From contig NW_024067738.1 in NCBI RefSeq assembly GCF_009389715.1, positions 310,001 through 374,000 of the forward strand: 64,000 nucleotides of DNA, written 5' to 3'. This DNA is from Phoenix dactylifera. Its lineage: Eukaryota; Streptophyta; Magnoliopsida; Arecales; Arecaceae. Below, one piece after another: positions 1,439 through 37,999 of this stretch. Below the pieces are notes generated by a model. It was given only the letters and a program-made list of their open reading frames with translations. It was not told the DNA's origin and searched no databases. Numbering within the stretch: the first letter of the stretch is position 1; the number at the start of each line of letters is the position of its first letter. The position numbers were made by a program, and so were the translations under genes.

Positions 1439-2478
1439 TGTTGCTGGAAATTGGACCCGGGGGCAATCTTCGGTCGAGGAGAGGGAGCGGCGAGTTCTCA
1501 CGGCGGGGCGGCGGTCCGTCGGCGAGCGGTGTCCTCTGTCTGGTGTGATCGGGGAGAAGGAGCAGCTGGTCCTCGTGGCGAGGCGGCGATCCGTCAGCTG
1601 GCGGCGTCCTCCGTCTGGGTGCCTGCACACGAACCGGTGGCCGGGTTTTCCGGCGCCGGCCCTCCGACGCTCAAGTCAGGGAGGGGGCGAATAGTGTAAA
1701 AAGGGAGATAAATAGTGTCTGTAGAGTGCATCCATCTTCCAATCCCCTCCTGAGAGGCCAAGGCTCCCTTTTATAGGCGGGGGTCGGTTTACCTGCGATG
1801 TAACAGGGCGAGGCCGTAGTACGGCTCGGCATGTTGTTCGGGTCGGCGCACGGTCGGGCGAATCATTGCACCGATGTCGGCGGTGAGGGCATCGTACAAC
1901 CCGAACTAGCACGCTACCAGGCGAATTATTGCATTGGTGTCGGAGGTATGGTCGGGATCAGAGACTTATCATAGTCGACTAGACTCTACTGGGCTAATTT
2001 GCCGTGGAGAGCTGAGAGTCCGTAGATGACAGGAGCCATGCGCATTAATTGTGGAGTAAGCCGGAGATCCGCATTTATTGTGGAGTAAGCCGGAGATCCG
2101 CATTAATTGTGGAGTAAGCCAGAGATCCTCATTAATTGTGGAGTAAGCCGGAGATCCGCATTTATTGTGGAGTAAGCCGGAGGTCCGCATTTATTGTGGA
2201 GTAAGCCAGAGGTTTACAGCGATCATGCGCAATAAATGCCAGAGGGGCGTCAGGGTATGGTCTTCGGCCGGACCTCAGAGGTGCACGGCCGTAGTAGGTG
2301 GCTGACAAGAGTAGACCTCGAACATCGGGGTTTTTCTCGGATCGGAGGTCTCGAGATCGGTCGTCTTGAGGTCGGGCGTCGCGAGGTCGGACGCCGACTT
2401 CGGCCGTCCAGGGTCGGAGGTCGTGCGGCTCCTTAGGGACATTTGCGTCATTTGGGAAAAATCTTGTTCCCCCCAACA
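1439..2478 (-). repeat. 3' LTR of the gypsy element (1,040 bp)
   Basis: This matches 13177-14407 nearly base for base. On the minus strand it starts TGTTGGGGGG and ends CCAGCAACA. A TATAAAAG promoter box lies on the minus strand at about 1768-1776. Six 29-bp tandem units lie at 2042-2215. Visible substitutions against the other LTR are in the stretches near 1506, 1531, 1890 and 1987. Confidence 0.93.
2042..2215. repeat. Six 29-bp tandem units inside the LTR
   Basis: Units start at 2042, 2071, 2100, 2129, 2158 and 2187. The pattern is GCATTAATTG, then TGGAGTAAGC, then CGGAGATCC, with TTA/TAA and single-base variants. The other LTR keeps units at 13780, 13809 and 13838 and then departs because of an insertion. 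The array lies upstream of the LTR promoter in element sense, so it may be enhancer-like. That role is inference. Confidence 0.9.
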
Positions 2479-2491
2479 CTACCCCCCGACT
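2479..2491 (-). other. Polypurine tract of the gypsy element
   Basis: On the minus strand GTCGGGGGGTAG abuts the 3' LTR start. This is the expected place and base composition for the plus-strand primer of reverse transcription. Confidence 0.75.
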
Positions 2492-3156
2492 TCCGAGTTC
2501 GAGCGGCTCGTGGGCTCGGACGTGGGAAGTAAAGTCTATCATTAAAGTTGGGGGGGGGGGGGCGAATCTCGTCCGCGTCCTTACGCTTCTCGGAGTTTTC
2601 ATGGTGAAACCTGCGCCCTTTGGCGTCTCGAGGCTGCTTTATTCAGCGAGCTTATGATGAAGCTCGTATCATTACGCTTCTTGAAGCGGGGGTGGCGTCT
2701 CTTGAATTGCCGAGGTTGCTTTGCGGCGGATTAAGGATGGGGGTCCTCGAGCTCGTCGAGGCGGTGTCTCCATCCCGTAATCGAGACCCCTTACTCATCA
2801 ATGAGTGTGCCGTTGCGGGGTCTAAAGCGGACACGCGGCATGACCTAAGGTCGGACGCTTCCGCTTTCGTGTTACTGGATCATAATTCCGGGGAGGTGGA
2901 GGCCACATCGGGGCTCCACGTGTCCCAGATCTTATTAAATGAGGGGAGCGGGGGTGGCGTCCGCTCGTTCCTCAAGACAATTTGATTTTGCGGACCCATG
3001 ATGAGGCCCCGAGATTCGATGGGACAACGCTTCGATTTCGTAGCCGATTTATTAATCCGGAGTGAATACGGTGCCTCGGCTTCCGAGGTCGACACGTGGC
3101 GCAACCCGATCGGGGGATGGGAACCGACCCCGTTGATCTGGGCCGTCAGGGGGGTC
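2492..3156. other. Spacer upstream of the antisense gene
   Basis: About 665 bp of GC-rich sequence between the polypurine tract and the TATA box of the antisense gene. Several short ORFs on both strands look like chance. It is in the position of that gene's promoter region. Confidence 0.4.
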
Positions 3157-3164
3157 TATATAAA
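3157..3164 (+). promoter_or_regulatory. TATA box of the antisense gene
   Basis: TATATAAA stands in GC-rich surroundings on the plus strand, 226 bp before the ATG at 3383. The strand is opposite to gag-pol. A pyrimidine-rich leader follows at 3190-3240. The box suggests transcription independent of the LTR promoter, which is inference. Confidence 0.6.
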
Positions 3165-3382
3165 CCCCTCGAGGTTGCCCTAAAGGTCTTGTTTGGCTGC
3201 TTCTTATTTTCGTTGTCTTTCTCCCTTGCTTCCTCCCTCCACCGAACCTTGCCGTCGGTGCCCGGAGCGATTTCCGGCGATGTCCAGTAGGTTCCTACCC
3301 CGTGATTGCTAGAGTCCCTCTTTTCTTCTCCTCCCCAGCTTCCATTCGCTGTTTTTAATTTTTATTTCGTTCTTCTGTGGGA

Positions 3383-5503
3383 ATGGGTTTGGGTCCTGAG
3401 GAAGTGGGGTCGAGCCTGTCGGGGGAGGAGTTGGAGCTGATCCGCTCCCGGTTCTTCTTCCAGCCCGGGTTTCGTCTTGAAACTGCGGGGCCGGGGGACA
3501 GGGTGACGCAGCCGCCCCCAGGTCGGATCGCGGTCTACCGCGAGACACTTTGGGCTGGCCTGCGTTTTCCCGCCCACGAGTTCGTGAGCAACCTGCTGGC
3601 CAAGTACCAGCTTGTCCCGGCGCAGTTGGCTCCGAACTCGTGGAGGACCATAATCGGGTTCTTGTCCCTGTGCCTCGGGCACGGGGTCCCGATCTCGGTA
3701 GGCCTCTTCCGCCGGTGTTTTCTGTTAAAGAAGAACCCGGCGGACGCAGGGTGGCTATACTTCGTCTTTCGGGGCGGTATATCACTCTTCCAGGGTGCCC
3801 CTTCCTCGATTCATGAGTGGAAGGGGAAATTTTTCTTCCTGGCGTCCGAGGCGCCTTGGGGGTTCGACCCGAGGTGGGGGAACCCTCGGTTGAAGGCCCT
3901 CAATAAGCTCTCTGAGCCCTCGAGGAGGGAGCTGAGGACCCTGGACTCTCTGCGAGCCCTCGGGAGGGGCAACGACCTGACCGAGCTCCTGCGGGAGGAC
4001 GCCCTGGCGAGCGTGGGTCTGAGCTCGGCGCGCCCCGAGGGTAAGGGTGGTTACGTTACTTTCTTTTCTCGTTCTTTGGTTTTACTGCCACTGGTCTAAC
4101 ACTTAACGAAATTTTTGATTTCAGATATTCCCCATATGCCGACCAGCAACACATCACTTTTTTCCCGCCTGAGAAGGCGAGAGGCCGAGGCCGGGGGAGC
4201 CATACCCCAGCCTCGGAAGAGGGCGAGGACAGACGGCGCTTCTACGTCGGCCGGGACGAGTGGCCCCGAGGCGGGGACCTCCATAGCTGACCCGAGGCGG
4301 GCGCGGGTCGCCATTGAGGCGGGTGCATCGGCCCCTCCTTGCCCTACCCCCCTTGCCCAGCGGGGGGAGTCGTCCATGGCCCGGCCGCGGCGGCCAGAAC
4401 CCGGGCTTACTCGAGGCCCCGAAGCGAGCGGCTCCGGGACCTCGGGCTCGATCGTGCCGAGCTCTTCCCGGGCTTTCCGAGAAGATTCAGTCGAGCCGGG
4501 CTCCTCTATTCCCGAGGGGAGTTCGGCCTTTCATGATGCCGAGGTCGCGCGTTCCGTGTTGCGGCGTGCGATGCTTCCAGCGGACCGGGCTGAGTTCCGG
4601 AACATTCCGTTGGAGGTCGTCAACAGTGCTTACTGCAACACCGCCCGGGTAAGCTTCCTTCTTAATTTCCTTAAGCTACTAGCGAACTTGTGTGTTTTTC
4701 AACTCATGATATCTTCGTTTCTTTCTTTTCAGCATGTCCACGAGCTCGACGCCTTGGTGTTTATCGCCCAAGGCTGTCAAGAGGAGGCCTGGCGGCTCGG
4801 CCGACAATTGGAGCCGGCCAAGAAGAGAGTCGCCGAGCTGGAGGCGGCGTTGGCCGAGGCCGAAGCTCGGAGGGCGGCCACCGAGGCCGAGCGCCTTGCT
4901 ATGGCGGAGGCGCTTGAAGAGGAAAAGGCTGCTCATGCCCTGACCAGGTCGGCCATGCGCGGTACGGAGGCGCGGTTGGGGGAGGTCCAGGCCGAGGTCG
5001 CGGCCCTCAAGTATGAGGACGGGGTTTCCCGTCTCCGAATCGAGCAACTCGAGGCCCGAGAGCGGAGGGCACTTGAGCGGGCTGACCATGCCGTGGAACT
5101 CTTCAAGGAGTCGCAAGAGTTCCGCGACATGTTGGAGGAGGAGACGGTGGACGGGTTCCTCCGGGGCTTTGAGAACTTCCGGCTGCAGATGCGCCGGTAC
5201 TGCCCTCAGTACGACCTCTCGACAGTCCGTCCGAGGGAGGACCTGGGCTGGGGGTCCGACGCGGAAGGCCTCCCCGCCATTTTGACATCCGAGGCGGGAA
5301 TATACGAACAAGACCCCGCCGAGCCTTCGACGGGGGCGGCCGAGGCGGTCGGTGCCATGGACGCGGCTCCGGCGGCCGAGACGGACGCCGTCCCGGAGGC
5401 GGTACCTGAGGCCCCTGCCCCCGACCCCGAGCCTGTGCCGGCCGAAGACCCCAAGATCATCAATGTGCCGGACGACCCCCCGGATGTTGCTCCCGCCGCT
5501 TAG
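3383..5503 (+). CDS. Spliced antisense ORF of the Tat element, Transposase_28-like
   Basis: Three exons are supported: 3383-4040, 4125-4648 and 4733-5503. Introns start GTAAGG and GTAAGC and end TTTCAG and TTTTCAG, and all junctions stay in frame, giving about 650 residues. Residues about 50-100 (LYRETLWAGLRFP-type block, here VYRETLWAGLRFPAHEF, then LVPAQLAPNSWRTIIGFLSLC) match my memory of Pfam PF04195, 'putative gypsy type transposon'. Exon 2 is proline- and serine-rich. Exon 3 is a long Ala/Glu/Arg coiled coil ending in an acidic, proline-rich tail. The ORF runs opposite to gag-pol and has its own TATA box, as gene23 does in maize Grande. Function is unknown. A second reading would put an extra 5' exon before 3383. 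No stop interrupts it, unlike gag-pol. Confidence 0.82.
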
Positions 5504-6567
5504 GACTTAGCGTATATCTTATTTTTTCTTTCTCTTTTTCCATTGTATCCGAGGTCGGCCCTTGAGTGGCCGACTTCCAATTTTGTAATTGGCCTTCCGG
5601 CCCTTTGTCAATGAAAAAATATTTTTGTCATTCTGTGTTCATCTTTCCCTCTGTTGTTGTGGATGAGGCTAGAGCCTTAGCTAACCGCCTTGACGACCTC
5701 TAACTTTGTAATTTAATTTTCGGGCTGCTTAACGAAGTTGCCCCTTTTTCCCGGGCTACGCCTTAGCCTTCTCGGATTCCAGTCATTCCGACCGAAGGGA
5801 GCTCCGAGTCTTAGGTTTTTTAGAAAATTTCTCTAAGTCCTATAACTCGGATCTGAGAGTCGTGGAAGTCATCACGTTTAGCTTTTAGGAAAATCCCCAG
5901 GCATTGAGGTCGGGCCTTAGTCCTTCAAGTAAGACCGAACTAGGTCTGTGCGTGCTGCTATTCGGGGAGTTTAGTCGGGTTTCCGAACTCAACTCTGAAC
6001 CCCTCGTAGGGAGCGCGGGCTAATAAACAAGTTATTGCCGAAGGTTTTCGTAGTTATCGTTCTCGGATTCTGCCGAGATTTCGGTGAGCAAGGCTGGGAT
6101 TTCCAAAGATTGCCTTGGTACCCGTGTTTGGCTGGTACACTCGTGGTCGGGACCACTTTCTCAGCCAGACATCGGAGTTTACGTAGAAGAGCCGAGTTGG
6201 GCCCTAATTTATGAAGCCTTTGTACAAATTGCGGAGACTTGATGAACGGAGCATGCATAATGTAGTTAGGGGGTCGGTCTTAAGCCGACCTATTGGAGAA
6301 GCCCGGCTTCGGGGCGGGATAAGACTCCAACGTTGGATGAGATTCCGCTCAGCAGTATGTAGATAAAATTTGACAAAGAGGGCGTCTAGTTAGATGTACC
6401 TCTTGCATTCTTAGAGTTATGCTTTGCATGGTGGAGTAGGTTGCCTCCCTTCCTCGTCGACCTCCGGAGTCATTCTTGACTTTAAGGGGGCTCGGGCTTC
6501 TCACGGACCCAACGGCGTCTGCCGAGGTTGAGAGGATTTGGGGAGGCTTTATTGATTTGTAGCTCTT
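5504..6567. other. Spacer after the antisense gene
   Basis: TAG at 5501-5503 is followed by a T-rich stretch and an AATGAAAAAA sequence near 5610 that could serve as a polyadenylation signal for the antisense gene. No other coding sequence is supported here. Confidence 0.45.
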
Positions 6568-7590
6568 TGCGAGGTCAAGGAAGCTTGAGACCCTATGGTC
6601 GGACCTCGGGGCGCCCCAGCCTTGGTCGAGGGATCTTGTGTCAGGTCGGCGAGTCCGTGGACGCTTTGCGGACCTGTGGTGCCTCCCGAGGTCGAGGGAG
6701 TCTGGTTCTCTACGGTCGACCCTCGGGGCGTCCCAACCTTAGTCGAGGGATCTTTCGTCAGGTCGGCAGGTCTGGGTACGCTCTACCGACCTGCGGCGCT
6801 TCCCGAGGTCGAGGGAGTCTGATTCTCTACGGTCGACCCTCGGGGCATCCCGACCTTAGTCGGGGGAAAGCTCGCTTCGGGGATCGGGGATCGTCGACCG
6901 CTCCCGGAGGTCCACTTTGTGGCGCCCCGGGTGGAGCCACCCTTTCCACCCCTTACGGCTTCTTCCCGAGGTCGAGGGAGTCTGGTTCTCTACGGTCGAC
7001 CCTCGGGGCATCCCGACCTTAGTCGGGGGATCTTTCGTCAGGTCGGCGGGTCTGGGTATGCTCTACCGACCTGCGACGCTTCCCGAGGTCGAGGGAGTCT
7101 GGTTCTCTACGGTCGACCCTCGGGGTATCCCGACCTTAGTCGGGGGAAAGCTCGCTTCGGGGATCGGGGATCGTCGACCGCTCCCGGGGGTCCACTTTGT
7201 GGCGCCCCGGGTGGAGCCACCCTTTCCACCCCTTACGGCTTCTTCCCGAGGTCGAGGGAGTCTGGTTCTCTACGGTCGACCCTCGGGGCATCCCGACCTT
7301 AGTCAGGGGAAAGCTCGCTTCGGAGATCGGGGATCGTCGACCGCTCCCGGGGGTCCACTTTGTGGCGCCCCGGGTGGAGCCACCCTTTCCACCCCTTACG
7401 GCTTCTTTCCGAGGTCGAGGGAGTCTGGTTCTCTACGGTCGACCCTCGGGGCATCCCGACCTTAGTCGAGGGATTCTTGCGCCAAGCCGATGTTTCATCG
7501 TCCTGCGATACTTCTCGAGGTCGAGGGAGTTTGGGACTCTACGGTCGAGCCTCGAGGCGTCCCGATTTTGGCCGGAGAATCTGAGGATCA
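6568..7590. repeat. Mosaic tandem-repeat array of the Tat element
   Basis: The anchor CCCGAGGTCGAGGGAGTCTG recurs with few changes at about 6568, 6684, 6802, 6965, 7082, 7245, 7408 and 7514. Spacings are about 116, 118, 163, 117, 163, 163 and 106 bp. Two unit types share the first ~65 bp and then diverge. The short one continues GGATCTTTCGTCAGGTCGG; the long one continues GGGGAAAGCTCGCTTCGG and ends near CCCCTTACGGCTTC. The order is therefore short, short, long, short, long, long, short-variant, then a partial unit. Tat elements are known to carry such arrays between pol and the 3' LTR. The plus-strand ORFs across it are chance products. Confidence 0.9.
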
Positions 7591-7696
7591 CAGACGACCC
7601 AACGTTAGAAGAGAGTTACAGCCATCAAGATGGGAGAATTATTTGCAAAAAGGAAGCTGAGTCCATTGTCCTGATTGTCATGAACCCCTAGGGGTT

Positions 7697-10267
7697 TTAC
7701 TGGTAGTACATTCGTAGATTCTCGGAGTTCCAGCTTCGCGGGATCAGGGTCCCCTCTAGGGACTTTAATTTATAGGCCCCTGGTCGTTGCACCCGGGCGA
7801 TCTGATACGGCCCTTCCCAATTTGGGGCGAGCTTCCCTTGCTCGGTCGGTTGAGAAGCCTCGACTCTCCTGAGGACGAGGTCCCCCACTTTGAAGAGCTT
7901 GGGCTTGACTCTGGCGTTGTAGTATTGGGCCGTTCGCTGTTGGTATCTCGCCATGCGGACCCGGGCGACCTCTCTTGTCTCTTCGACAAGATCCAAGTTG
8001 CTCCTGAGCTGGGAGGAATTGGTGTCGGGGTCGTAATGCTCCACTCTTGGAGAAGGCAGGCCGATCTCCAACGGGATGACGGCCTCAGTGCCGTATGCCA
8101 GGTTGAAGGGGGTCTCTCCCGTGGGCAGTTGGAACGTGGTCCGGTACGCCCAAAGGACATTGTACAAGTCCTCAACCCACTGTCCTTTGGACCGATCAAG
8201 CCTAGCCTTGAGCCCCTGCAAAATAGTGCGGTTAGTTACCTCAGTTTCCCCGTTTATCTGGGGGTGAGCGACTGAGGTGAAACGGTGATCAATGCCAAGC
8301 TCAGAGCAAAATTTCCTGAAATGAACATTGTCAAATTGTCGACCATTGTCGGATATAAGGATACGGGGTAGTCCGAATCTGCAGATTATGGACTTCCACA
8401 CGAAGTCCCACATCTTTGGCTCGGTGATCCGGGCGACGGGTTCGGCCTCGACCCATTTGGTGAAGTAGTCGATGGAGACGACCAGGAACTTTCTCTGTCC
8501 GGTGGCCAGGGAAAAGGGCCCCAGGATGTCGATCCCCCATTGGGCAAACGGCCAGGGGGCGATGATGGAAGTCAGCAAAGCTGAAGGTCGGCGCTGGACA
8601 TTGGCGTTTCGTTGGCACCGATTGCACTTCCGGACGAAATCCGTTGCATCCCTCTGGAGTGTGGGCCAATAATATCCTTGTCGCAGGACCTTATGGGCTA
8701 ATGCGCGACCCCCCAGGTGATTTCCGCAGATCCCTTCATGGACCTCTCGGAGGGCATAGTCCGCCTCGGAGGGGCGGAGGCATCTGAGAAGGGGAGAAGT
8801 AAACGATCGCCGATAAAGTCTATTCTCGTACAAGACATACCGGGGGGCCTGGCGCTTGATTCGGCGAGCCTCCGTCTCGTCGTGAGGTAGGGTTCCGTCC
8901 TGAAGGTAGCAGACGAGCCCATCGATCCAGCTTGGCTCGGAGTCGATGCACATGGTGGGCTCGGGTTCCTCCGTGCTGGGGATCTGGAGGTACTCGAGCG
9001 TTGTTCCCTTGGGAAGCTCGCTCATGCGGGAAGTTGCCAATTTGGATAGTTGGTCTGCCCTGAGGTTTTCCGCTCTGGGAATGTACTGAATATTGAAAGA
9101 ATTCAGGGCAGACGTGAGTTCCCGCACCTTTTGGAGATACTTTTGCATGGATGGCTCTTTAGCTTCGAAGTCTCCTCGAATTTGGTTCACCACCAGCTGG
9201 GAGTCGCTGAAGGCCGTCAGGTCTCCCACTTTTAGTTCTTTCGCCAGCTTGAGCCCGGCGATGAGAGCCTCATACTCGGCCTCATTGTTCGAGGCCGGAA
9301 ATTCGAGGCGCAAAGCTTGCTCGGCCACCACTCCGTCTGGACTGGTGAGGATAAGTCCGGCCCCGCTGCCCCCCGAGGTCGAAGACCCGTCCGAGTGCAG
9401 GACCCATGGCTGCCTCGGGGCCTCCTCCACGGATTCGGGTGGCCGCTCGGGGTTGTCTGAAAGGGTGCACTCCACGATGAAGTCGGCGAGTATCTGAGCT
9501 TTGATAGTCGGCCTGGGCCGATATTCGAGGTCGAATTTCCCGAGCTCGACCGCCCATTTGGCGATCCTCCCCGCACGATCCGACCTCTGCAATATTTGCT
9601 TCATAGGCTGGTCGGTCAATATAGCTATCGTGTGGGCTTGGAAGTAAGGCCTGAGTCTCCGCGCCAAGATGATGAGAGCGAAGATGGTCTTCTCAAGTTT
9701 AGAATATCGGGTCTCAGCATCCCTGAGAACCCGGCTGGTGTAATAGACCGGCTTTTGGAGCTTGTCCTCTTCCCGGACGAGGACTGAGCTCACTGCAGCC
9801 GGGGAGACGGCCAAATATAAGTAAAGGATCTCGCCTTTCTGGGGCTTGGTGAGCAGTGGGGGAGAGGCCAGAAGGCTCCGAAGCTCTTCAAAGGCCTGCT
9901 GGCATTCTTCTGTCCACCGGAAGTCTTTCGGCCGTTTGAGGCTCTTAAAGAAGGGGAGGCAGCGCTCGGCTGACCGAGAGACAAACCTTCCCAGGGCGGC
10001 AACCCGCCCCGCGAGCCGTTGCACCTCCTTAACTGTCTTCGGAGGCAACATCTCTTGCAGTGCCCGGATTTTCTCCGGGTTGGCTTCAATTCCGCGCTGG
10101 GTCACTATGAAACCCAGGAACTTGCCCGAGGTGACCCCGAACGCGCACTTCGCCGGGTTAAGCTTCATTTGATATCTCCTGAGCTTGGCGAATGTCTCGT
10201 TGAGATCGGCAATGTGGTGTTCCGCCGCTCGGCTCTTCACCAGCATGTCGTCCACATAGACTTCCAT
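7697..10267 (-). pseudogene. pol part 2: RT end, two RNase H domains, integrase
   Basis: This frame continues reverse transcriptase after a frameshift near 10290. It opens at the RT catalytic motif YVDD. Next comes a gypsy RNase H (LYLAVSPAAVSSVLV, then YSKLEK and LTDQP) in which the usual first Asp is absent. A second, archaeal-type RNase H follows (HSDGSSTSGGSGAG, SNNEAEYEAL, FSDSQLVVNQI). Integrase has an HHCC finger (VHEGICGNH, CNRCQ), then DDE residues in WGIDILGP, ISDNGRQF and NGETEV. The C-terminal end is a GDLVLRRV barrel without a chromodomain. It ends about 110 bp before the tandem array. Intact from YVDD onward, but separated from its start, so this copy cannot make a full polyprotein in one frame. 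Confidence 0.92.
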
Positions 10268-11664
10268 GTTCCGGCCGATCTGGTCTTTAAAAATTTGGCT
10301 ACCAGTCTCTGATAGGTGGCCCTAGCGTTTTTCAGGCCAAAGGGCATCACCTTGTAGCAGTAGGTGCCCTTGTCGGTGATGAAGGCCGTCTTTTCCTCGT
10401 CTTCCGGCGCCATTCGAATTTGATTGTACCCTAAAAAGGCGTCCATAAAAGTTAGCAGCTGGTGTCCTGAAGTGGAGTCGACGAGCTGGTCGATGCTCGG
10501 GAGGGGAAAGCTGTCTTTCGGGCAGGCCTTGTTTAGGTCGGTGTAGTCCACGCACATACGCCACTTCCCGTTGGCCTTCTTTACGAGGACTACGTTGGCG
10601 AGCCAATCCGGGTAGGAGACCTCCCGGATGAAGCCGGCCCCGAGGAGTTTGTCCACCTCCTCAGCCGCAGCTCGTTGTCGTTCTGGGGTGGAGCCTCTTT
10701 TCTTCTGCTTTACAGGCCTGCTGGTTGGCCACACCTGGAGTCGGTGGACCATGACCTCAGGGTCAATTCCTGGCACGTCCGCGGGCGACCAGGCGAAGAC
10801 GTCAGCGTTGTCCCGCAGGAAGCTGACGAGGCGATCCCTCTCGTGGGCACCGAGGCCGGAGCCGACCTGCACGGTTAGCTCGGGAAAATTTTCTTGTAGT
10901 GGGATTTGAATAAGGAGCTCACCGGGCTCTACTTGCTTCTTCCAGAGGGTGTCCCTCGCATCGAGGGTTTCTATGGGCAGCGAAGGGCCCATCGGGTGGT
11001 CCGGCGCCTTGGTCGGTTGCTCTGCTGTGTGGGCTACCATGTAGCATTGCTTGGCGATCAGCTGGTCTCCGCGGACCTCGCCTACTCCTTGGCCGGTGGG
11101 GAAACGCACGAGCAAATGGCGAGTTGAAACCACGGCTCGAAGGGCGTTTAGCCCAGGGCGCCCAAGGATGGCGTTATAGACCGAGGGCAGACGGACCACC
11201 AGGAAGTCCATCCTCACGGTGCTCTCCCGGGGGGCGAGGCCGACTGTGACAAGGAAGCTAGCCTCACCTTCAACCGGGACCGCATCTCCGGTAAACCCAA
11301 CCAATGGGGCATTGACTCTCCGGAGATACCCTTCCGTCACTCCCATTTTTTGGTAGGCATGATAATACAAAATGTTGGCTGAGCTTCCATTGTCAACTAG
11401 GACACGCTTTACATCAAACCTGTTTACAATCATAGAGATGACCACAGCGTCATCATGAGGGGTTTCGACCCCTTCTAAGTCCTCGTCCGAGAACGAGATG
11501 ACTTCACCAGTACGTGGGCGCTTCGGGGGTGCTCCCTGGGCGGCTGTTCCTGCCGAGGCCCGCCCAATCATGTTGATGGTACCGGCGATGGGCCTGTTGT
11601 CGCCCGGATTTTCGGTTGGTGCGACATTCTCCGCCGGCCTCCTTTCCTCATGTCGGTTCCTCAC
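10237..11664 (-). pseudogene. pol part 1: protease and N-terminal RT
   Basis: The frame is continuous with gag except for the stop at 11718-11716. An aspartic protease core VLVDNGSSANILYY lies near 11,395; Asn replaces the usual Ser/Thr after Asp, a change I also recall in other Tat elements. RT follows with WRMCVDYTDLNKACPKDSFP, then LLTFMDAFLGYNQI and the palm region up to FGLKNARATYQRLV. It then loses frame in an A/T-rich run around 10289-10298, where one base appears to be missing. The last ~20 residues of the ORF are out of frame. The protease and RT residues that can be seen are in their expected places. Confidence 0.9.
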
Positions 11665-11715
11665 GAACCGGTCGAGTACTCCCCGCTGGATGAGCGCTTC
11701 TATCTCGTCCCGGAG

Positions 11716-13143
11716 TTAGAAGCAGTCCTCCGTGTCGTGCCCGCGATCTCGGTGGAAGCGGCAATACTTCCTGGGATTTCGGGGGAATCCCGTGTCTCGC
11801 ATGGGGGGCGGGGGTCGGAAGAAGTCCCGACCCTCGATTTCCATCAGGATTTCGGCCCGGGGAGCGTTGACGGGTGTATAGTTCTCGTACTTCCCCGGGT
11901 ACGTCCGAGGCCGTGGTGGGGACCTCGGTCGAGGAGGGGTCCTCTGCTGAGGTCGCCTCTGCTGTCGGGGCGGACTTCTCAGTCTGGGGAGACTCTTCTC
12001 TCGGCGGGGAGACCGGCTCCTTTGCCGGCCGCGCTCCTCGCGGCGCTTCTTGCGCTTCTTCGAGGCGGGCTCGATTGCTCCCCGCCTGGAGGCGACTGCC
12101 TCCTCGGCCTTGGCATACTTCCGGGCTCGGGCCAACATTTCGGTGAAGTCGGCCGGGAAGCTCTTCTCTACGGAGAAGAGGAATTGGTAGGAGCGAACCC
12201 CAGTCTTCAGAGCCGACATGGCTATCGACTGGTCTAGCTCGCGAACCTCCCATGTAGCAGCGGTGAAGCGATCCAGGTACTCCTTGAGGGACTCCCCCTC
12301 TTTCTGTTTGATGTCGAGGAGGGAGTCTGACGTCCGTCGCTGGCGCCGGCTGGCAGCGAAGTTGGTAGCGAACTGCCTGCCGAGTTGCTCAAAAGAGGAC
12401 ACCGTGTTCGGCTTCAGTCCCGAAAACCAAAGCCGAGCGGTCCCTCGGAGGGTTGCTGGGAAGGCCTTGCAGAGTATGGCCTCCGAGGACCCTTGTAGGG
12501 CCATGAGGGCCCGATAGCTCTCCAGGTGGTCGAGAGGGTCAGTTGTCCCGCTGTAGGGTTCCACTTGAGGCATTTTGAACCTCGCGGGAACCGGCTCATC
12601 CTCGATCTGGCGGGAAAAGGGGGACTTGGTAGTGAACTCAAAGTCTCCCTCTTGTCTTGCCTTCTTGCTGTGGAGCGCCGCAATCTGGCGCTCCAGATAC
12701 TCAACTTTCCGGTCGAGCTCCCCCATCCGTGGGATTGTCGCTGTGGTTTGCGCCGGCTCACGGTGGTCTGGGGCTGACTCTGCCTCAGAAAGCTGGGGCC
12801 TCTGGTCGAAACCTTCTCCCGGTAACTCCCTCCAGGGAGAAGCTCGTTCTCCGTTGTTGGCTCTGGAGGAGCCATGCAAGTTTTGGCTTGGGAAAACCGG
12901 GCCGTTGGGGAAACACTCCGGCGGGGCCTGGGCCCGTGGGGGGAGCGTAGGTAAGGCTTCCTCGCGCCGCAGACCCTGAACGGCGGCGGCCAGGGCCTGG
13001 ACTTGCTGTACCAGGGCGTCGAACTATTCCGGCTGGACTTGAGGAGCTGGGTCAGCCGGAGTTGGAGAATTTTGGACGGAGTGTCCAGGGCTTTGTGGGG
13101 GACGCCGGGAGATGTTAGAGGCACCCTTACTTCTCAACTTCAT
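11716..13143 (-). pseudogene. gag of the Tat element, two in-frame stops
   Basis: Gag probably begins at ATG 13143-13141, about 30 bp from the primer site. A TAG at 13026-13024 stops it after 39 codons; the same frame then stays open to a TAA at 11718-11716. Between them lies a Retrotrans_gag-type domain (YSGTTDPLDHLESYRALM, then LRGTARLWFSGL and FAASRRQRRTSDSLLDIKQ). A basic Arg/Ser/Pro-rich linker follows, ending in a zinc-knuckle-like CRFHRDRGHDTEDC. Both stops fit C-to-T changes of Gln codons (CAG, CAA) in element sense, as expected from deamination of methylated cytosine. The stop after the knuckle is in the same frame as pol, so gag-pol was originally one ORF. Confidence 0.88.
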
Positions 13144-13156
13144 GACTGCTACTCGG

Positions 13157-13174
13157 GCCCTTCCTCTAGCGCCA
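13157..13174 (-). other. Primer binding site
   Basis: Two bases after the 5' LTR end, the minus strand reads TGGCGCTAGAGGAAGG. TGG at this place pairs with the CCA end of a tRNA; TGGCGC fits tRNAs ending GCGCCA (some Asp/Arg types). I cannot name the tRNA. The LTR remnant near 31,853 carries the same TTGGCGCTAG start. Confidence 0.7.
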
Positions 13175-13176
13175 AC

Positions 13177-14407
13177 TGTTGCTGGAAATTGGACCCGGGG
13201 GCAATCTTCGGTCGAGGAGAGGGAGCGGCGAGTTCTCACGGCAGGGCGGCGGTCCGTCGGCGAGCGGCGTCCTCTGTCTGGTGTGATCGGGGAGAAGGAG
13301 CAGCTGGTCCTCGTGGCGAGGCGGCGATCCGTCAGCTGGCGGCGTCCTCCGTCTGGGTGCCTGCACACGAACCGGTGGCCGGGTTTTCCGGCGCCGGCCC
13401 TCCGACGCTCAAGTCAGGGAGGGGGCGAATAGTGTAAAAAGGGAGATAAATAGTGTCTGTAGAGTGCATCCATCTTCCAATCCCCTCCTGAGAGGCCAAG
13501 GCTCCCTTTTATAGGCGGGGGTCGGTTTACCTGCGATGTAACAGGGCGAGGCCGTAGTACGGCTCGGCATGTTGTTCGGGTCGGCGCACGGTCGGGCGAA
13601 TCATTGCACCGATGTCGGCGGTGAGGGCGTCGTACAACCCGAACTAGCACGCTACCAGGCGAATTATTGCATTGGTGTCGGAGGTATGGTCGGGATCAGA
13701 GACTTATCATAGTCGACTAGACTCTGCTGGGCTAATTTGCCGTGGAGAGCTGAGAGTCCGTAGATGACAGGAGCCATGCGCATTAATTGTGGAGTAAGCC
13801 GGAGATCCGCATTTATTGTGGAGTAAGCCGGAGATCCGCATTAATTGTGGAGTAAGCCGGAGATCTCCCGGATTTTCAGCTTTAAGGAAAGGGAGGAAAG
13901 GAAACAGAACAACAGGAGAAGTATTCGGACACTGACGTAATCTCTCTCGAGCCTCTTGAAGAGAGCAGTTGTGAAAGCCCTGGCTTTCCAACCGCGCTCC
14001 GCTCTTCCCCTCTCCCGCCCTTCGTGCATGAGCAAAGCCGCCCTCTTCGAGTAAGCCGGAGATCCGCATTAGTAAGCCGGAGGTCCGCATTTATTGTGGA
14101 GTAAGCCGGAGGTCCGCATTTATTGTGGAGTAAGCCAGAGGTTTACAGCGATCATGCGCAATAAATGCCAGAGGGGCGTCAGGGTATGGTCTTCGGCCGG
14201 ACCTCAGAGGTGCACGGCCGTAGTAGGTGGCTGACAAGAGTAGACCTCGAACATCGGGGTTTTTCTCGGATCGGAGGTCTCGAGATCGGTCGTCTTGAGG
14301 TCGGGCGTCGCGAGGTCGGACGCCGACTTCGGCCGTCCAGGGTCGGAGGTCGTGCGGCTCCTTAGGGACATTTGCGTCATTTGGGAAAAATCTTGTTCCC
14401 CCCAACA
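13177..14407 (-). repeat. 5' LTR of the gypsy element (1,231 bp)
   Basis: Same ends as the other LTR, TATAAAAG on the minus strand near 13,508. It is 191 bp longer because of a foreign 183-bp block at about 13866-14048 set into the 29-bp tandem units, with local unit rearrangement after it (a shortened GCATTAGTAAGCC unit). Apart from this and about four substitutions the two LTRs agree. Confidence 0.93.
13866..14048. other. 183-bp insertion inside the 5' LTR
   Basis: The sequence TCCCGGATTTTCAGC to CGCCCTCTTC is absent from the 3' LTR. It has no terminal repeats, no poly(A) and no clear duplication at its edges. It lies in the tandem-unit array, so filler DNA captured during break repair is more likely than a transposon. 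Origin not recognised. Confidence 0.8.
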
Positions 14408-14412
14408 ATATG
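14408..14412. repeat. Target site duplication ATATG, right copy
   Basis: Exact copy of 1434-1438, directly after the CA end of the 5' LTR. Confidence 0.93.
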
Positions 14413-14784
14413 GATTTCCACAAGCCTCTAAATTGTTTGAGCATCCTGTTTGCTTCTTCCCACCTTCCCAATTGTGCGCGAGACAACTCATGGGGAAGCA
14501 TGTTTTATGTCGAAACAGTCGTAAGTCAATAGCGCAAACCTATGTTCATTCAAACATTTTTAGCATTTAAGGTGGTGAGAAGATTGCATGGGCCTTGATA
14601 ACTTGTATTCGTGACGGTGGACAAAGATTAAAACAGACCGAACAATCTGAAATTGTTAGTTTCATCGATTTCCTACCGCTGTTCAAAACTAGTAATCTGC
14701 ATTCTAGGTTTGAAATGCACTATTTTTCATCAAAAGAAAAGTTTAAATGCATGAAATTGGCATCAAGCTACGGCAATGGCTAAC
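14413..14784. other. Intron sequence between NFU2-like exon 3 and the gypsy element
   Basis: Starts (minus strand) with a GTTAGCC donor at 14784. AT-rich, no exon on either strand. It is joined to 1433 in the pre-insertion state. Confidence 0.6.
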
Positions 14785-15485
14785 CTTTTCTACGTTCTCC
14801 TCATTGAGATCGAGCCCGGTCTCGCTATCAAGGATTTGCTCGACCGCTTGAATTTCTGGGATCTTGTCCATGAGGCGCGTCTCGATGCCCATCTTCAAAG
14901 TCATCGTCGAGCTCGGGCACGACCCGCACGCGCCTTGCAGCTTCAACACCACGACGAGGCCGTCAATCTCCTGCAGGGCCACATTCCCTCCATCCGCCAT
15001 CAAGCTCGGCCTCACCTGGTCCAGAACCATCTCAACATTCTCTTCAGTCAATGGCAGGACACAGACCGCCGAGCTCGATCCTAATTCCAACCATGGGAAT
15101 CCGTTACATCAAAGAACCATATATCATCGTCCAAATAAACCTAATCATTGCTTACCTGCCCCTCTTCGTCTTCTTCTCCCCCGATGCCGAGCGAATTGGA
15201 AAGAACGCCTGAGGTCGGTTTGGCCTCTGCTCTGTTTCCAAGTTTATCCGAAAGAGGAATGGATGATGATAAGCAGGATGATTGGCTTGTTTAACACTAC
15301 TTTCTCCATCAGACGGCCGAAAAGAGAAGAGTATTTATTGGAATAACATGAAGCCAGGGCAGGAAGAGGAGTACCTTGGGGAAGCTCAAGTGGGAAGTAG
15401 AGATGCGTTGAGATGGAGGAGGGAATGGGTTGATTGCCGCTGTTGAGCTCGGTCCCTGCAGACGGGCTGACGACAAGAATCCCAT
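14785..15485 (-). CDS. NFU2: NifU-like Fe-S scaffold protein, NFU2-like, 5' exons only
   Basis: NFU-domain proteins of plastids build or pass on Fe-S clusters, among others for photosystem I. Exons: 15485-15375 (ATG at 15485, 37 codons), 15231-15156 and 15080-14785, with GT-AG introns in phase. Exons 1-2 give about 62 residues rich in Ser, Arg and Pro with few acids, which fits a chloroplast transit peptide. Exon 3 holds the first NFU domain: [38 protein letters not shown] and the cluster ligands in [10 protein letters not shown]. It leaves in phase 0 at NEENVEK, just where the second, cysteine-free NFU domain should begin. That last exon is not found in the window, so it lies past the left edge or is lost. 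Exon 2 borders are the least certain. Confidence 0.8.
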
Positions 15486-37266: not shown

Positions 37267-37456
37267 TACCCCTTTTTTTTTTTTTTTCTTCAACTGCAAA
37301 AGTGTATAATTTTGGTCCTAATCATTAGGTCAGTGGTTGTACGGAAATCTCGCTTGGAGGGTAACGGCAGTCTTGGAAACGGGTCCGGATCAGTGAATGT
37401 ACGGTGAATGATCTGTGCTGCTGCTTCCGTCTTTCACTCACCGGGACAAAAATTTT

Positions 37457-37999
37457 GACCAGAGATGATTGCGTCCAAGGATTTTTAAATCTGGATGGAT
37501 CGGTTACCTCCTTGATTGACGGAGACCGAGATGAATGGACATCAAATAAATATTTTTTTAAAAAAATAAAAATTTTAAACACCTTAACAAATATTTTTAG
37601 AGAAGGAGAGCAAAATCTCAACCAACATGTTAAATCTAGAATTAAAAACTAAATTAAAGTTTAATTTTAATATTATTAATCTTAATTTTTACTGATTTTT
37701 ATTGGCTAAGACATTAGTATTAAATTTTGACCAGAGATGATTGCGTCCAAGGATTTTTAAATCTGGATGGATCGGTTACCTCCTTGATTGACGGAGACCG
37801 AGATGGATGGACATCAAATAAATTTTTTTTAAAAAAATAAAAATTTTAAACACCTTAACAAATATTTTTGGAGAAGGAGAGCAAAATCTCAACCAACATG
37901 TTAAATCTAGAATTAAAAACTAAATTAAAGTTTAATTTTAATATTATTAATCTTAATTTTTACTGATTTTTATTGGCTAAGACATTAGTATTAAATTTT
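37457..37999. repeat. 272-bp direct tandem duplication
   Basis: Copy 1 (37457-37728) and copy 2 (37729-37999) both start GACCAGAGATGATTGCGTCC and end ATTAGTATTAAATTTT. By eye they differ at about four places (GATGAATGG/GATGGATGG, one in a T run, TTTTTAGAG/TTTTTGGAG, one single-base gap). The duplication is therefore recent. No transposon ends are seen. Confidence 0.95.

Follow-up and report, generated by a model that had tools for sequence, protein, structure and literature searches.

A probable three-exon antisense TRP28 gene under selection in a Retand-type retrotransposon lineage of Phoenix dactylifera

Antisense genes for proteins with the Transposase_28 domain (PF04195, TRP28) are already known as a characteristic feature of the Retand retrotransposons of plants. 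The 2025 survey of these elements reports them in 97% of recently active Retand clusters, and they resemble the gene described here in encoding a PF04195 protein, in running antisense and in lying between pol and the 3' LTR (Vicient, 2025; PMC11963269). An older survey reports Transposase_28 in only 23% of Retand elements (PMC6317226). Nearly the same layout as at the present locus is seen in clusters 1c and 1d of Oryza rufipogon, which have LTRs of 1,174 and 1,077 bp and internal regions of 10,703 and 10,727 bp, compared with LTRs of 1,231 and 1,040 bp and an internal region of 10,698 bp here, and which contain a TRP28 match plus an Smc-type match (PMC11963269). That survey lists ORFs found by ORF Finder, whereas at this locus the TRP28 part and a coiled-coil-like part appear to be exons of one gene (PMC11963269). 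In the main text of the survey the term "intron" is absent, "splic" and "exon" occur in reference titles only, and no dN/dS test on TRP28 genes was seen (PMC11963269). By description, gene23 of the maize element Grande is similar as well, since it is antisense, has its own upstream promoter and lies between pol and the 3' LTR; it is transcribed from that promoter and its protein is reported as nuclear (Gomez-Orte, 2013, as cited in PMC7264820). The same position and orientation are described for the antisense ORFs of the Oryza elements RIRE2, Wallabi and Gran3, which are said to resemble that of Grande (PMC7264820). Both the 2020 review (PMC7264820) and the 2025 survey (PMC11963269) give the function of these proteins as unknown, and the review asks for a search for antisense and spliced transcripts (PMC7264820). 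We found no description of introns in antisense TRP28 genes in the literature searched, which left most subscription papers outside, and we do not claim that such introns are unpublished. A sequence-only reading of this DNA had presented the gene as an under-described system. This is only partly fair, as a section of the review and the 2025 survey treat antisense TRP28 genes; conserved introns are a useful addition to what is known of them.

The window, by which we mean the whole stretch of 64,000 nucleotides that was analysed, contains a complete Retand-type element flanked by a 5-bp target duplication, ATATG, at 1434-1438 and 14408-14412 (Table 1). On the minus strand the Pfam matches follow in the order gag, RT, RNase H, RVT_3 (a second RNase H, aRH) and integrase, with RT_RNaseH at 149-245, RVT_3 at 293-410 and the integrase core at 573-669 of the frame at 7697-10267. 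A second RNase H before integrase is a mark of the angiosperm Tat-group elements, Ogre and Retand (PMC6317226). The region from pol to the 3' LTR measures about 5.2 kb (7697 down to 2479), inside the published Retand range of 2,933-6,566 bp. Together, the second RNase H, this long region and the antisense TRP28 gene point to Retand, the aRH position being shared by Ogre. Tandem repeats in the same region occur in about half of Retand elements (PMC11963269). A repeat scan of positions 1-1500 found nothing. The two LTRs differ at 7 of 1040 aligned columns (K2P 0.0068; 99.3% alike in a global alignment), which at a substitution rate of 1.3e-8 per site per year corresponds to an age of about 0.26 million years. 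LTRs are normally identical at insertion, and their difference in length here stands against that: the 5' LTR exceeds the 3' LTR by 191 bp, and about 185 bp of it (13866-14049), without counterpart in the 3' LTR, has part of a 29-bp tandem array on either side (array region 13865-14083). Gag-pol had been described from the letters as carrying two stops and a frameshift. We see a single internal stop, near 11.72 kb, and a single frameshift in RT, near 10.3 kb; the second stop is unclear, its candidate lying just above 13023, where it may precede gag.

Table 1. Features of the retrotransposon and of its antisense gene; positions are those of the window.
Feature	Position	Strand	Basis or remark
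Complete Retand-type Ty3/gypsy LTR retrotransposon, 12,969 bp	1439..14407	-	LTR pair, TG..CA ends, 5-bp target duplication
3' LTR, 1040 bp	1439..2478	-	LTR pair comparison
TATA box of antisense gene	3157..3164	+	TATATAAA, sole occurrence in the 12,969-bp element, both strands searched
Upstream ORF, 10 codons (MSSR...)	3280..3312	+	10 codons in 38/38 copies
Exon 1: start codon, PF04195 domain	3383..4040	+	658 bp in 38/39 copies; PF04195 match
Intron 1 (GTAAG..CAG), predicted	4041..4124	+	Sibling splice sites; same position in distant families
Exon 2, basic NLS-like cluster	4125..4648	+	Frame and sequence features
Intron 2 (GTAAG..CAG), predicted	4649..4732	+	Sibling splice sites; same position in distant families
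Exon 3: coiled-coil-like stretch, acidic Pro/Ala-rich tail	4733..5503	+	Stop codon 5501-5503
Tandem repeats, units 117, 280 and 163 bp, between antisense gene and pol	6593..7472	.	Repeat scan
End of RT, RNase H, second RNase H (RVT_3), integrase	7697..10267	-	Pfam matches in that order
Gag-to-RT region and first part of RT	10237..11664	-	Closed by frameshift near 10.3 kb
Gag region (PF03732)	11716..12879	-	Pfam; frame closed by internal stop
5' LTR, 1231 bp	13177..14407	-	Self-BLAST and global alignment

The arrangement proposed for the antisense gene from the letters alone held up: downstream of its TATA box, on the strand opposite to gag-pol (plus) and in the interval from pol to the 3' LTR, three exons with consensus introns join in frame to give 650 codons. 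Of the three GGTAAG motifs that the element has on its plus strand, two are the donors of introns 1 and 2. The exons have a G+C content of 64-67%, the introns of 36.9% and 34.5%. The open stretch of 459 codons formed by exon 2, intron 2 and exon 3 was reached in none of 500 dinucleotide shuffles; the open length of exon 1 was reached in 15 of 500 and is the weaker signal of the two. Both introns, however, have a length of 84 bp, which is divisible by three, and intron 2 contains no stop in the window copy. In-frame joining is therefore weak evidence for splicing when this copy is taken alone; 35 combinations of donor and acceptor leave an open frame here. Taken by itself, the window copy thus offers moderate evidence for a spliced gene.

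The predicted protein matches PF04195 over residues 52-116 with 52.8 bits (cut-off 26.2; E 4.6e-14), in agreement with its proposed kinship to the antisense proteins of Tat-group elements. The domain is found in all 28 members of an exon-1 alignment, in which conservation reaches residue 218, well past PF04195. In exon 3, residues 423-470 and 492-534 include neither proline nor glycine; the coiled-coil Pfam matches of the protein are weak and below their cut-offs. Folding exon 1 without an alignment gave a pLDDT of 39, which is unusable. Among PDB entries, a sequence search returned one match at E 0.23 and a profile search none up to E 1. Outside the genome of origin, exon 1 had no match in viral_contigs or genome_contigs, nor did exon 3 and a pol piece in viral_contigs or the gene region in plasmids (blastn), these collections being non-plant and therefore uninformative on rarity.

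Comparison among copies carries the case for splicing. An exon 1 search of the palm's own genome gave 4802 first-look candidates, of which 150 were scored, those listed being 91-100% identical. Forty siblings taken across the exon-1 ranking were aligned with the window, and dropping two rearranged copies (L036 and L040) left 39 sequences including the window. In these, donor 1 reads GTAAG in 39/39, acceptor 1 AG in 38/39, donor 2 GT in 34/39 and acceptor 2 AG in 38/39. Intron 1 is 82, 83, 84, 85, 86, 90 or 91 bp long and intron 2 ranges from 83 to 101 bp. If intron 1 were retained, the frame would stay open in a single copy of the 39, compared with 24 of the 39 for intron 2, which makes intron 1 the stronger case among close copies. 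The splice sites are thus mostly kept and the length of intron 1 drifts out of frame as that of exon 1 stays constant, a pattern indicating that both introns are real.

The same structure recurs at a greater distance. A further search of this genome gave 3465 candidates, of which 150 were scored; from the scored set we took 20 PF04195 loci with long frames, whose exon 1 is 59-71% identical to that of the window. A GTAA donor stands at the corresponding place of intron 1 in 18 of the 20, with a matching acceptor as well in 14, and the introns so delimited measure 66-118 bp. Exon 3 was matched in 17 of the 20 loci and begins right after an AG in 13 of the 14 matches that reach its first residue; a donor-like site lies 69-93 bp upstream of it in 14 of the 17. 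The basic cluster that follows intron 1 also recurs in other families, for example as PKPRKKAK or EPRKRAR. Introns at corresponding places in these loci mean that the three-exon structure is older than the families compared.

An alternative four-exon model, with its start at ATG 3280, an intron at 3291-3414 and an open frame of 643 codons, is rejected on the almost exclusively third-position variation within 3383-3414, where minority letters per column amount to 0.64, 0.64 and 10.2 at the three codon positions. The TATA box is exact in 33 of the 39 aligned copies. Over 375 distant pairs (L036, L040 and L038 left out), divergence is 0.07-0.14 in 2983-3232, 0.20 in 3233-3257 and 0.22-0.32 in 3283-3382; between distant copies, promoter and leader over 2983-3232 are therefore two- to three-fold less diverged than the stretch right before the start codon. 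Such low divergence fits a constrained promoter and leader, but this DNA also belongs to the genomic RNA close to the 3' LTR, which may be the cause instead. The least diverged stretch of the leader (0.036) surrounds the upstream ATG at 3280, and the short ORF that begins there may point to translational control. A sigma-70 promoter scan is inapplicable to plants.

Selection was estimated from pairwise dN/dS (Nei-Gojobori), the pairs being non-independent and the standard errors obtained by jackknife over copies. The gene and pol were compared in 16 copies including the window, after 5 of 20 pol pieces that had no match or were mosaic had been dropped (L050, L051, L058, L059 and L062). Over 107 distant pairs, dN/dS (SE) is 0.129 (0.015) for exon 1, 0.432 (0.024) for exon 2 and 0.266 (0.019) for exon 3, compared with 0.183 (0.059) for RT-RNaseH and 0.074 (0.008) for integrase; the TRP28 domain gives 0.092 (0.018). 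Across subfamilies the gene is thus not near 1, the value that had been named beforehand as speaking against selection. Exon 1 appears constrained about as strongly as pol, and exons 2 and 3 less than either part of pol. Selecting the siblings on their exon-1 protein score lowers dN in exon 1 and favours intact copies, with a smaller effect on exons 2 and 3. An exon 1 constrained to the degree seen in pol would mean that the protein matters to the spread of the element. Among 503 subfamily pairs (dS 0.2-0.5) the values for exons 1-3 are 0.11, 0.45 and 0.30, and among 40 close pairs (dS under 0.03) they are 0.37, 0.93 and 0.84, which in exons 2 and 3 is a clear rise towards 1; no clear rise is seen in the gene-and-pol set, whose 5 closest pairs give 0.41, 0.45 and 0.34. 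Shifted and opposite frames, taken as controls, gave 1.03-3.01 in 12 of 15 cases. The three low controls come from the opposite-strand frame that shares its wobble columns with the gene (0.17, 0.46 and 0.38, against 0.12, 0.44 and 0.30 in the gene frame), and for exon 2 this frame is only slightly worse than that of the gene. On these comparisons, the antisense protein is under purifying selection in the element lineage, and we regard gene structure and selection on the protein, taken jointly, as very probable.

This selection does not concern the resident copies. Of the 38 siblings, 13 still have 600 or more codons in their spliced frame, 12 of them with all four splice dinucleotides. The condition named beforehand as refuting selection, stops in most sibling copies, would apply if read literally, since 25 of 38 are without such a frame, yet old copies all come to this in time and the count is silent on selection during spread. 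A second list was drawn up from the promoter DNA, with 40 of 652 candidates scored and the window among them. It has 27 of its 39 other places in common with the exon-1 list, and 3 of these 27 have one stop in exon 1. All of 8 promoter-chosen copies out of the 39, seven of them absent from the exon-1 list, carry at least one frame-breaking indel by alignment. Some of these alignments look noisy, most of all that of one copy (L096:1-2271) with many single-base deletions across all three exons, which may reflect an assembly or alignment error rather than decay. Of 20 siblings checked for pol, 17 have it downstream on the opposite strand. In the 16-copy set the gene is free of stops and frameshifts in 8 copies and the pol piece in 7, the window included, the pol pieces being partial and that of the window starting after its own frameshift. 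Decay of the siblings, with gene and pol decaying alike, argues for selection on spreading lineages and not on resident copies. For the window copy, the 0.7% LTR divergence leads one to expect 0.14-0.17 stops in the gene since insertion, so that it would be stop-free by chance with probability 0.85-0.87. The intact gene beside a broken gag-pol is therefore no evidence of selection. Of the suggestion that the gene is under selection of its own, the low dN/dS across subfamilies survives; the inference from the intactness of this copy does not.

What the protein does is a more tentative matter. The gene is probably an antisense accessory gene of a Retand element, of the kind of TRP28 and Grande gene23, and its product may be a nuclear regulatory protein. 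The protein is under selection and combines an NLS-like stretch with a coiled-coil-like part, and one member of its class is reported as nuclear (PMC7264820); this makes a nuclear regulator or helper most likely, DNA binding of TRP28 proteins being a published prediction only (PMC11963269). In the mechanism that we propose, the TATA promoter of the gene, some hundreds of bases inward from the 3' LTR, would drive an antisense transcript, from which splicing of the three exons would yield a 650-residue protein made up of the conserved exon-1 domain, the basic NLS-like stretch, the coiled-coil-like segment and the acidic tail. This protein would enter the nucleus, pair through its coiled coil and bind DNA or RNA of the element, where it might regulate expression or escape from silencing in trans. 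The element family has been selected to keep this protein. A regulatory role in this sense is the most likely of the specific functions, though we put it forward as possible rather than established. It is favoured over the somewhat less likely view that the protein aids movement of the element, perhaps by bringing the pre-integration complex into the nucleus or to its target. That exon 1 is selected like pol and that the basic cluster recurs in other families would suit this view, and the review discusses nuclear entry of the complex in this context (PMC7264820). A separate antisense promoter, however, is an odd route for a component of the particle, and otherwise movement and regulation fit the data alike.

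Explanations that assign the protein a lesser or different part fare worse. It is conceivable that the antisense transcript acts as RNA, pairing with the genomic RNA so as to feed silencing or damp transposition, with the protein secondary. The gene does lie opposite the 3' part of the genomic RNA, the option is raised in the 2020 review (PMC7264820), and the contrast in divergence between 2983-3232 and 3283-3382 would be compatible with it, but an RNA role predicts neither the low dN/dS of the gene frame, nor the third-position variation near the start codon, nor the constant length of exon 1, and we consider it improbable. Far less probable still is a takeover by the host, in which the antisense gene of the window copy would be selected on its own. 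The intact gene and promoter in a copy with a broken gag-pol would speak for such an event, but the youth of the insertion accounts for a stop-free gene, the close-pair dN/dS values stand against it, and the gene decays across copies like pol; selection on this copy apart from its element, as expected of a domesticated host gene, was not found. A chance open frame in G+C-rich DNA could explain the length of exon 1 alone, given the shuffles, but is hardly credible in the face of the PF04195 match and is refuted by dN/dS and the splice sites conserved among siblings.

If the antisense protein is indeed made from a spliced transcript, its placement acquires a reason. The genomic RNA would carry the antisense introns reversed and hidden from the spliceosome, so the introns would survive retrotransposition because the gene is antisense. 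Retrotransposition reporters use the same logic, their intron being readable in one strand only (PMC12786077). Ogre and EVADE are likewise plant LTR elements with functional introns, but the intron of Ogre is on the sense strand between gag-protease and RT and that of EVADE serves subgenomic RNAs, whereas the introns here are antisense (PMC12786077; PMC6317226). More speculatively, and with considerable doubt, it may be the antisense orientation that allows a retroelement to pass through its RNA stage with a gene that has introns and a promoter of its own. A single uptake of such a nuclear gene by Retand, in DNA form and with the introns, would have preceded the split of the compared families, and the protein would serve the family in trans, also from copies with a dead gag-pol. 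The transcript of HBZ in HTLV-1 is spliced and its protein has a coiled coil. HBZ is also an antisense gene of a retroelement with a nuclear protein, a comparison that extends to the way of working only (PMC11963269). That the TRP28 part and the coiled-coil-like part appear as exons of one conserved gene tells which protein to express and which transcript to seek.

Elsewhere in the window, a NifU-like domain (PF01106, E 4.5e-26) at 14743-15090 on the minus strand, a few hundred bases beyond the element, possibly belongs to a host gene beside the insertion. A direct repeat of about 279 bp, 98.9% identical and arranged head to tail, occupies 37450-37999.
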